Shown here piece by piece: positions 37,693-40,773 of a stretch of 64,000 bases of DNA (position 1 is the first letter of the stretch; each line of letters starts with the position of its first letter). A model generated the notes under the pieces. The model was given only the letters and a program-made list of their open reading frames with translations. It was not told the origin of the DNA and made no database searches. The stretch comes from an uncultured Desulfobulbus sp. (lineage in GTDB: Bacteria > Desulfobacterota > Desulfobulbia > Desulfobulbales > Desulfobulbaceae): contig NZ_OY760916.1 in the NCBI RefSeq assembly GCF_963664075.1, positions 3,121,001 through 3,185,000 on the forward strand, read 5' to 3'. A program made the translations under genes and the position numbers.

Positions 37693-40600
37693 CTACTTGG
37701 TCATATTATTCACCGCCGACTGCAAAGAACTGCTCGAGGCCATGAGCCGCTCCAGGGCAGCAACCGTATCACCCACAGAGTCCTGTACGGTTTCCGTGGT
37801 CTTACGATTATCCCCTGCGGTTTGCACAACCGTTTGTATCTGCTCCATCACCTTCTGACCATGATCTGCCAGATCCGCCGCCCTGCCACTGACATCGTCT
37901 ATGGACGTAGAAATCGTCATGATACCACTGGAGATCTCATCCATGGCACTCAAAGCGGTATTAATGACCTTGGAGCCATCATCGAGCATGCGCATGCCGT
38001 CCTGCATGGCGGTAATAGTCTGGCGGCTGTCGTTCTCCACCATTTTAACGATATTGGAAATATCAACCGCTGAACGGGAACTATTTTCAGCCAGTTTACG
38101 GACTTCATCGGCAACCACGGCAAAGCCGCGCCCGGCATCACCGGCTCGAGCAGCCTCAATAGCAGCATTAAAAGCCAACAGGTTCGTCTGCGAGGCGATC
38201 TCTTTGATGATGTCGACAAAGCCACCAATTTTTTCAACCTGAGAGACCAGCGTCGCCACCATCTCATTATTTTGTTGCATGGAGCGGTTGATTTGCTGCA
38301 TCTTTTCACCGGCTTCCGCGCCTGCCTTGCGTCCATTTTCCGCCTCGGAAGAAACGGACCCAGCCAACTGGTTCACCTTTTCGCTGACTCCCAGCATCTC
38401 ATTGGAAGATGCCAACATCTGACGAATGGTGGCCTCCGAGGCATCCAAGCGAACAACCTCCTGCTCGATCGCCTCGTTCATCACCTGCATATCTTTTTTA
38501 ACCTGGCCCATACGTTGCTGGGAGTCGGCTACCAGGCCGGCGACCTCGCTGCTGGCGGTGCTGACCAACTGTTCAACCTCGGCCTCTGCACTGACATCAA
38601 GGACAAACTCAAGCGCGCCTTTGATGTTACCCTTGGCATCTTTAATCGGAGCACCGGTGTACTTGATGGCGATGTCACGGCCATTGATCCGGGCAACCGT
38701 CTTGCTCGAGATTACCTGATCGCTCTGCATGGCCTGATTGCAGGAACAGTGTTCTGTTCGACAATGGCCTGTATTAAAAAAATTATAGCATTTCTTGCCG
38801 ATCAATTCGTCGGCACTCACCCCGAGGGCTTGGGCACCAGCCGGGTTGATATAGGTGATAGAAAAATCGGTATCAATCGAGAAAATCGGCGTGGGAATGG
38901 CATTCAGATTTTCAATTTTTTCATTGGCATCCTGACGTTGCCGGGCCTCATCGGTGATATCAAGGACAAACTCCAAGGCACCGGTGATATTGCCTTTGGC
39001 GTCTTTGATGGGCGCCCCGGTGTACTTAATCGGCATGATAACCCCATCTCGTGGCCGGGCGATGGTCTCTTCACTGATGACCGAATCACTGTTCATCGCC
39101 CGGAGACAGGCGCATTTTTCGGTCTGGCAATGCGGTGTTTTAAACAACTCATAACACTTGCGGCCAATGGCGGCATCAGGGGCCAGGCCGACTGCCGAAG
39201 CTCCCGCCGGGTTTATGAAGGTCACGGTATACTCGGTGTCGATCGACATGATCGGGGTGGGGATGGCATTGAGATTTTCAATCTTGGTGTTGGCATCGTG
39301 CCGCTGTTTAGCCTCTTCGGTGATATCTAGAATAAACTCAAGAGCCCCTTTGATATTCCCTTTGGCATCCTTGATGGGAGCCCCGGTATATTTGATGGGC
39401 ACAATCACCCCTTCACGCGGCCGAGCTATGGTTTCCTCGGTGACGATGCCATCGGTGGACATAGCCTGGGTGCAGGCACATTTCTCGGTACGACAATGGG
39501 GTGTCCTAAAAAAATCATAACATTTCTTGCCCACCATCTCGTCCGGACTGAGCCCCACCACAGAAGCTCCTGCCGGGTTCATATAGGTGATAGTAAAATC
39601 GGGATCAATGGACATGATCGGGGTCGGAATGGCATTGAGATTTTCAATTTTCTCATTGGCCATCTGCTGGTGCTTACTTTCTTCGGTCACATCCAAGACG
39701 TATTCGAGGGCTCCTTTAATATTGCCTTTGGCATCCTTGATTGGAGCACCGGTATACTTAATGGGAATAATCACCCCTTCTTTTGGTCGGGCAATGGTCT
39801 GCTCGGAGACAACACCGTCGGTTTTCATGGCCCGGAGGCAGGCACACTTCTCGGTTTTACAGTGCGGCGTCTTAAAAAGATCATAACATTTCTTGCCTAC
39901 CGCCTCATCGGGGCTCATTCCGACCACACCCGCCCCGGCGGGATTCATGAAGGTGATGGTGAAATCGGTATCAATGGACATGATTGGCGTGGGGATGGTA
40001 TTGAGGTTTTCAATTTTCTCATCAGCTAACTGCTGCTGTCTGGCTTCATCGGTGACATCAAGAACGTATTCAACAGCTCCGATAATATTGCCTTTGGCAT
40101 CCTTAATCGGCGCACCGGTGTACTTAATGGGCACAATGACCCCATCCCTTGGGCGAGCGATAGTCTGCTCTGAGACAACGCTGTCAGTCTTCATCGCTCG
40201 CAGGCAGGCGCATTTTTCGGTTTTACAGTGCGGCGTCTTAAAAAGATCAAAACATTTTTTTCCCACGGCCTCATCCGGCGTCAATCCAGCCACTCCAGCT
40301 CCGGCCGGATTAATAAACGTTACTGTAAATTTATCGTCGATCTCCATAATCGGCGTGGGGATAACATTAAGGTCGGTCTCCATCTGGTTCAGTCGAGCTT
40401 CCAGTTCTTTCTCCCGGGTGATATCTGCCATAACAACCAGGGTCTGGTCTTCGGATTCGGCTACATGACTGGCCTGAGAACGGTAGTAGCGCAGGCCAGC
40501 CCCGTTATTGTGGACAGCTTCTGCGCTCACAGGCTTATGGAGGCGCTTGGCCTTTTCAACCGGGCAATCTTTGGTTCCGCAGAGATGCAGGTTGCAGGTC

Positions 40601-40773
40601 TCTTCACAGGTCATCTTGCCAATCACCTCAGCAGAGCTCAGGTTGAACGTTTTGTAAAACGCATTGTTGGCCCAAATAATGGTGCGCTTATCATCTACGA
40701 CAAACCCCGCCTCGTCCCGAGTCTCCAGCAAACGCATATCCAAATTGCCAGGTGTATTTGCTCCAGATGCCAT
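37693..40773 (-). CDS. Soluble methyl-accepting chemotaxis protein with tandem Cys-rich PAS repeats
   Basis: A 1026-aa cytoplasmic chemoreceptor without signal peptide or membrane helix. One divergent PAS domain (about 10-125, with a Cys cluster C-x3-C-x4-C-x4-C) is followed by five almost identical PAS repeats of 122 residues (about 136-744). Each repeat starts (N)[10 protein letters not shown] and has a [19 protein letters not shown] cluster and [13 protein letters not shown]. The last repeat varies most ([15 protein letters not shown]). The C-terminal signalling coil has the CheA/CheW-contact hairpin [20 protein letters not shown]. Clusters may bind haem, Fe-S or metal, so redox or gas sensing is plausible. 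GGAGG lies five bases before ATG 40773. Third in the operon after the CheW-domain gene. Confidence 0.93.
38542..40368. repeat. Five tandem 366-bp PAS-coding repeats
   Basis: Units at about 40003-40368, 39637-40002, 39271-39636, 38905-39270 and 38542-38904 code for five PAS repeats. The length is exactly 122 codons for at least the first four, and long stretches are shared between units. This fits recent duplication, or repeated conversion, inside the gene. Confidence 0.9.

Follow-up and report, generated by a model that had tools for sequence, protein, structure and literature searches.

The sigma54 activator OrpR (DVU2106), which acts on the orp operons of Desulfovibrio vulgaris, reportedly carries a redox-sensitive [4Fe-4S] cluster in a PAS domain. 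Among soluble chemoreceptors, Aer2 uses haem PAS domains together with HAMP units. A precedent for a [4Fe-4S] cluster in a PAS domain is NreB of Staphylococcus carnosus, whose cytoplasmic PAS senses O2 by means of an O2-labile cluster of this kind, as summarized in PMC8534201. Precedents for reversible acetylation are AcuA/AcuC of Bacillus, a GNAT acetyltransferase and an HDAC-family deacylase that are encoded together (as outlined in PMC13121692), and CobB-CheY of E. coli, where deacetylation of lysines of CheY alters chemotaxis (as outlined in PMC2883070). How strict anaerobes avoid oxygen or unfavourable redox conditions is, at the level of the receptor, poorly understood.

Here a chemoreceptor and its gene neighborhood are analysed within the window, that is, the whole stretch of DNA examined, 64,000 nucleotides in length. 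The reading put forward, to which we give somewhat less than an even chance, is that of a cytoplasmic redox receptor that feeds CheA kinases encoded elsewhere and that is served by a dedicated acetylation pair acting on signaling proteins. The receptor and its parts are these:

37693..40785, minus strand: soluble chemoreceptor of 1030 residues, with an N-terminal PAS, five PAS repeats and an MCP signaling domain (open reading frame, Pfam)
40396..40728, minus strand: N-terminal PAS, residues ~20-130, with the cluster C60-x3-C64-x4-C69-x4-C74 (Pfam and cysteine positions)
40021..40386, minus strand: PAS repeat 1, residues 134-255, Cys 178, 187, 192, 194
39655..40020, minus strand: PAS repeat 2, residues 256-377, Cys 300, 309, 314, 316
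39289..39654, minus strand: PAS repeat 3, residues 378-499, Cys 422, 431, 436, 438; the unit used for the structure model
38923..39288, minus strand: PAS repeat 4, residues 500-621, Cys 544, 553, 558, 560
38560..38922, minus strand: PAS repeat 5, the last, residues 622-742, Cys 666, 675, 680, 682
37696..38559, minus strand: MCP signaling domain, residues 743-1030, tip from residue 862 (PF00015, E 1.3e-37 for the whole protein)

Residue numbers are counted from 40785. The start probably is at 40773 (Met5), because GGAGG lies 5 nt before that ATG; the coordinates of the initial annotation, 37693..40773, for which the open reading frame is present, are thus probably right. Pfam finds six PAS_4 stretches and an MCP signaling hairpin with its conserved tip, and matches neither HAMP nor AAA+ in the receptor. 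The repeats span residues 134-742 at a spacing of 122 residues (121 for the last). There are indeed five of them, as first noted, but they are not near-identical: pairwise identity is 57-80%. The N-terminal PAS is 22-24% identical to the repeats, and the other PAS domains that resemble a repeat within the same genome (one contig of 4.775 Mb) reach at most 32%. Third codon positions differ by 0.47-0.60 per codon in six comparisons among repeats 1-4; the repeats are therefore old, and this divergence rules out their being an assembly artefact. The membrane-spanning form is typical of MCPs without being required, and a 19-residue Kyte-Doolittle scan, with a highest mean of 1.26, finds no transmembrane stretch; judged by its sequence, the receptor belongs to the soluble MCP subtype, which bears out the initial proposal of a soluble receptor.

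All 24 cysteines of the receptor fall within six clusters. Each repeat carries C-x7-H-C-x4-C-x-C; the HCx4CxC-type cluster described at the outset is correct as far as it goes but incomplete, inasmuch as another cysteine opens each cluster. The further Cys-rich PAS that had been placed before the repeats is there as well, and three of its four cysteines occupy the same alignment columns as cysteines of the repeats. Six C-x8-C-x4-C triads are observed; when 24 cysteines were placed at random, no trial out of 20,000 exceeded two. Among 234 units from 63 homologous loci (each unit at least 95 residues long, a few N-terminal PAS among them), Cys54, Cys63 and Cys68 (unit numbering) are invariant, unread X apart, and His62 is kept in 91% and Cys70 in 74%; this sample leans toward the cysteine motif, because one of the two patterns of the locus scan contained two of the triad cysteines and because unit-profile matches favour Cys, the other repeats within each protein not having been chosen by pattern. 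A GTKxCP signature of the N-terminal PAS recurs in 29 of 35 unbroken homologous open reading frames; in one homologue, from a MAG (locus L059), this domain is without two of the four cysteines. An AlphaFold model of the repeat 3 unit, which is metal-free, gives a confident PAS fold (pLDDT 92.8) with a helix at 54-57, a loop at 58-68 and a helix at 69-76, so that the three cysteines are predicted within a single helix-loop segment; sequence profile and fold both identify the receptor units as PAS.

The 63 loci, found by scanning genome contigs, belong mostly to Desulfobulbus, Desulfocapsa, Desulfopila and their relatives or to unplaced delta- or Proteobacteria MAGs, the closest homologue being that of Desulfobulbus rhabdoformis (95%). 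The MCP tip is present in 34 of 35 unbroken open reading frames, which carry three to seven repeats as counted by motif: proteins with 3, 4, 5, 6 and 7 repeats number 3, 6, 18, 5 and 2, respectively, where the counts for L013 and L062 may be low, because runs of unread sequence cover a motif, and that for L029 is one too high. In L035 a break in the receptor frame separates the PAS part from the MCP part. Repeat classes were compared across 159 repeats of 32 complete proteins--that of the window and those of 31 loci, the 35 unbroken frames after removal of L035, which has no MCP tip, and of L013, L020 and L062, which contain stretches of X--and units were aligned as 88 from the loci (of 90 kept out of 229) together with the five of the window. 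Inner repeats are 85.5% alike within a protein (107 pairs) versus 79.4% between proteins (4358 pairs); for 44 of 95 of them, the closest relative is another repeat of the protein they belong to. The last repeats form a positional class of their own: in 26 of 32 cases the closest counterpart is the last repeat of another species, and first repeats match first repeats equally often (26 of 32). The ends therefore appear to be fixed, while the middle expands, contracts and is homogenized.

Cysteine triads of this kind also occur in proteins with other outputs. A survey for distant PAS relatives matched 99 of 394 genomes of the phylum; 30 loci were scanned and the units of 22 compared, and all 30 distant PAS matches in these 22 loci carry C-x8-C-x4-C. 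To this were added 10 further regions and then five regions around distant proteins. The 10 regions contain 12 PAS domains, with C-x8-C-x3-C in 11 and the x4 spacing in one; by Pfam, all 10 proteins of these regions are sigma54 activators, at least four of which lie near PF02579 genes, which is the arrangement of OrpR. Within the window's own genome, five of 14 other PAS matches, including the four with the best scores, have C-x8-C-x3-C, and nine are without it. The three cysteines of the receptor PAS thus sit at the columns of the OrpR-type relatives, the second gap being 4 here versus 3 in 11 of the 12. The initial suggestion that every PAS bears a metal- or redox-ready site gains indirect support from the invariant triad, the predicted fold and these shared columns. 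Further Desulfobacterota proteins, either receptors (those of G133, G175 and G322 among them) or kinase-like, have a Cys-triad PAS once or twice (loci L089-L102); in L103-L109, likewise from this phylum, the protein is 293-372 residues long and combines one such PAS (e.g., FDRKCYEIFNTPMCQTEQCTC) with a remainder without assigned identity.

By analogy with the OrpR-type relatives, the favoured reading is that the cysteine sites form a [4Fe-4S]-type redox or O2 sensor. The six PAS domains would be strung along connecting helices, possibly as a rod, each having its three-cysteine site within the Ealpha-Falpha segment, which closes the usual PAS cofactor pocket, and each site most likely would bind a [4Fe-4S]-type cluster. 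With oxygen or a rising redox potential this cluster would be lost or altered in state, and where this happens, be it in a single unit or in several, the connecting helices and the MCP tip would be displaced.

Three other readings of the cysteines have to be weighed against this. Fold searches match haem and flavin PAS folds--the closest include LOV, the NifL FAD-PAS, DosP and FixL--and list no Fe-S PAS among the best 50 matches of each search; moreover, C54 aligns with the LOV cysteine. That the pockets bind haem or flavin, with the cysteines only modulating, is nevertheless very improbable: the LOV flavin motif, NCRFLQ, is absent, the sequence around C54 being GKKCYDLFK, and the conserved histidine is missing from many last repeats and from relatives. 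LOV photochemistry was rejected, only the position of the cysteine coinciding, as was a His-ligated haem as a shared core, since no more than 18 of 32 last repeats keep the histidine. A metal-free thiol switch--disulfides or persulfides within or between PAS units, formed when the cytoplasm is oxidized or rich in sulfane sulfur--we consider unlikely, inasmuch as three cysteines rather than a pair are fixed, at near-fixed spacing across very different outputs, and OrpR is said to hold a cluster. Such a switch would, on the other hand, suit a sulfate reducer (homologue hosts are sulfate-reducing by name), it accords with the lack of an invariant fourth ligand in the clusters, and a table in PMC8534201 includes ArcB and EvgS as PAS redox sensors and lists no metal for them. 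Still less probable is Zn2+ bound at each cluster, whether structural or as the signal. The C-x7-H-C-x4-C-x-C of the window's repeats would offer it four or five ligands and, according to a summary in PMC8534201, the WalK PAS senses Zn; but only three cysteines are invariant, the fourth being present in 101 of 127 repeats when first and inner ones are taken together, and in 12 of 32 last ones, the histidine fares as just described, and the sigma54-activator relatives are without the histidine and, in 12 of 12 PAS, without the C-x-C. As precedents, the C-terminal cluster of the sensory [FeFe]-hydrogenase was set aside, because it lies outside the PAS as described in PMC13104023, and so was a sulfide-sensing NreB homologue, whose account in PMC9918477, as far as drawn upon, has no bearing on the Cys-triad motif.

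Around the receptor lie the following features. The initial annotation was silent on them.

42968..44446, minus strand: sigma54 response regulator of the NtrC type, which may control the operon (PF00158, PF00072)
42918..42943, minus strand: palindrome ACACTGTC-N10-GACAGTGT, candidate activator site
42813..42828, minus strand: sigma54-type promoter TGGCATGCTCTTTGCC before P136 (aligned intergenic regions)
42350..42760, minus strand: P136, first gene of the operon, a receiver-fold protein with no phospho-acceptor residues recognisable by eye
40794..42353, minus strand: CheW3, which has three CheW domains and lies immediately before the receptor gene (Pfam)
37064..37627, minus strand: GNAT acetyltransferase (PF13302, E 7.9e-19)
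36040..37074, minus strand: HDAC-family (class II-like) deacylase, likely starting at Met52 of the open reading frame 36040-37227 (PF00850, E 3.4e-93)
35523..36029, minus strand: YkgJ/PF03692, CxxCxxCC putative metal-chelating protein (PF03692, E 1.9e-9)

In all 50 loci where this could be tested, a homologue of CheW3 lies upstream of the receptor; each of the five divergent homologues scanned has three CheW stretches. P136 has a receiver fold, in which, by eye, the phospho-acceptor Asp, the acidic pair and the Lys are not at the expected strand ends; Pfam gives no receiver match in 17 members, nor anything else credible, and matches to P136 precede CheW3 in 16 loci (six strong, 10 weak). On the downstream side, GNAT is found in 44 of 45 testable loci (in the 45th, L013, it is present outside the distance window of the count), an HDAC relative in 39 of 39, and YkgJ in 28 of 32, not being found in L014, L065, L067 and L068. 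In the gammaproteobacterial MAG of L059 (Halochromatium) the module genes are kept in changed order, with YkgJ before GNAT. The best solved relatives of the deacylase in the PDB are HDAC6 and HDAH; among 45 neighbours, one of which (L055) is cut by a contig end, the catalytic motifs RPPGHH, DxDxHH, SAG(F/Y)D and EGGY occur in 45, 45, 43 and 44. Of the 394 genomes of the phylum, eight have receptor units with scores better than 1e-60, and an HDAC orthologue (at least 59% identity, E < 1e-140) occurs in all eight of these and in none of the other 386, the next HDAC being 44% identical. Gene order thus places GNAT, HDAC and YkgJ within the conserved module of the receptor, and co-occurrence does so for HDAC as well. 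In one further genome, G275, the receptor has two related repeats (2.7e-47) and there is a single CheW but no close HDAC, the downstream side being off the contig; five smaller genomes of the same genus (G011, G048, G102, G147 and G248; 2.5-3.4 Mb) give no matches to the receptor repeat (1e-20) or to HDAC (1e-50). In the DNA visible downstream of three distant triad receptors (G133, G175, G322), GNAT, HDAC and YkgJ of the window find no match. A role in defence was considered and dropped, PADLOC matching none of these three proteins.

Within the Desulfobulbus/Desulfogranum group, comparison of intergenic sequences indicates a conserved sigma54-type promoter for the operon, next to the NtrC-type gene. 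The GGC and TGC cores of the site are invariant in six aligned intergenic regions; a seventh, that of L013, was checked afterwards and has a similar site, AGGCACGGCCCTTGC. A strict sigma54 pattern matches four of the seven regions. Because single matches in the window are at chance level (22 found versus 20.8 expected), it is the alignment that provides the evidence for this promoter. Upstream of it, the two ACA blocks of the palindrome are likewise invariant in the six regions. Predicted sigma70 promoters and terminators number 13 and 13 versus 10.7 and 10.0 in shuffled sequence, and Rfam has no match within 32000-46000. Upstream of the NtrC-type gene, at 44509-45384, the window encodes a response-regulator protein that matches HisKA weakly; its homologues adjoin that gene in L009-L013. 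Beyond the other end of the module, at 32451-35285, lies an iron-containing alcohol dehydrogenase-like protein (NCBIfam ErcA, 589 bits, cut-off 550); its gene directly adjoins a PAS histidine kinase with a receiver, as an Erc-like regulatory pair.

The module itself is without CheA, CheR and CheB. CheA is present in all eight module genomes, on other contigs or far away, and CheW3 would couple the receptor to these kinases. The window's own genome has two other che clusters with CheA, CheW, MCP and CheB or CheR (C1:1917000-1926000 and 2716000-2726500; L134, L135). One CheA frame of these clusters gives three CheW matches; in Desulfobacteraceae such a frame can be a split-domain artefact, as noted in PMC10542144. 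Flagellin matches are weak or absent in three of the eight module genomes, all of family f42, so that their output may not be flagellar.

The GNAT and HDAC enzymes would most likely add acetyl groups to, and remove them from, lysines of the receptor, CheW3, the pseudo-receiver or CheY, and acetyl-CoA status might in this way tune the response; both steps are offered more cautiously than those for the receptor. The pair could instead act on small amines, since there is weak similarity between the GNAT and acetyltransferases for aminoglycosides and diamines; HDAC10, moreover, is among the PDB relatives of the deacylase. That the two enzymes are unrelated to the receptor, acetylating and deacetylating polyamines or other amines and being co-transcribed with it for another reason, seems improbable all the same, given their adjacency to the receptor wherever testable (save for the one GNAT count noted), the restriction of the HDAC orthologue to the eight receptor genomes and the retention of both genes in L059 despite its changed order. 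Nor, in a reading against HDAC6 only, does the aligned part of the deacylase clearly contain the gatekeeper Glu ascribed to HDAC10.

If lysine acetylation of signaling proteins is indeed its role, then the GNAT-HDAC pair would be the first acetylation cycle known to us that is genetically tied to a chemoreceptor; it may link the redox or metabolic state of the cell to movement in a sulfate-reducing bacterium, and it would make an old question, the role of acetylation in chemotaxis, directly testable. If the PAS sites bind Fe-S, strict anaerobes would have in this receptor a redox sensor with several clusters that serves chemotaxis. The range of repeat numbers is a natural series in which the effect of additional sensor copies can be studied. 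A more detailed proposal, which we regard as doubtful, is that each chain has six Fe-S-type sites (up to eight in relatives), that the co-inherited acetyltransferase and HDAC set adaptation or output, and that the copy number of units tunes the system between species.

The receptor and its module are real, conserved and unusual. The parts of this locus are of known kinds; the literature searched holds no description of their combination, which is new within that scope. OrpR probably likewise has a three-Cys PAS, a likeness read from 12 PAS of 10 relatives, but in OrpR the PAS sits on an AAA+ DNA-binding activator, whereas here six PAS sit on a chemoreceptor with MCP output and a second gap of x4. 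NreB is a histidine kinase with a cysteine spacing of CX2C...CX2C, which is not that of the receptor, where C-x8-C-x4-C-x-C recurs in every repeat. With soluble chemoreceptors of the Aer2/McpB type the receptor shares a PAS input and an MCP hairpin; the NCBIfam Aer2 model, however, matches best at residues 803-968 and with 132 bits, far below its cut-off of 1200, and the receptor differs from Aer2 in its six tandem Cys-triad PAS and in having no HAMP match in Pfam. The Acu system resembles the module in that a GNAT and an HDAC-family deacylase are encoded together, but it acts on acetyl-CoA synthetase, whereas the pair described here is encoded next to the receptor and CheW3, and its HDAC is class II-like. 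Pfam finds neither AcsA nor AcuB among the neighbours scanned. CobB, finally, is an NAD-dependent sirtuin, whereas the deacylase described here is an HDAC-family enzyme encoded in the operon of the receptor itself.
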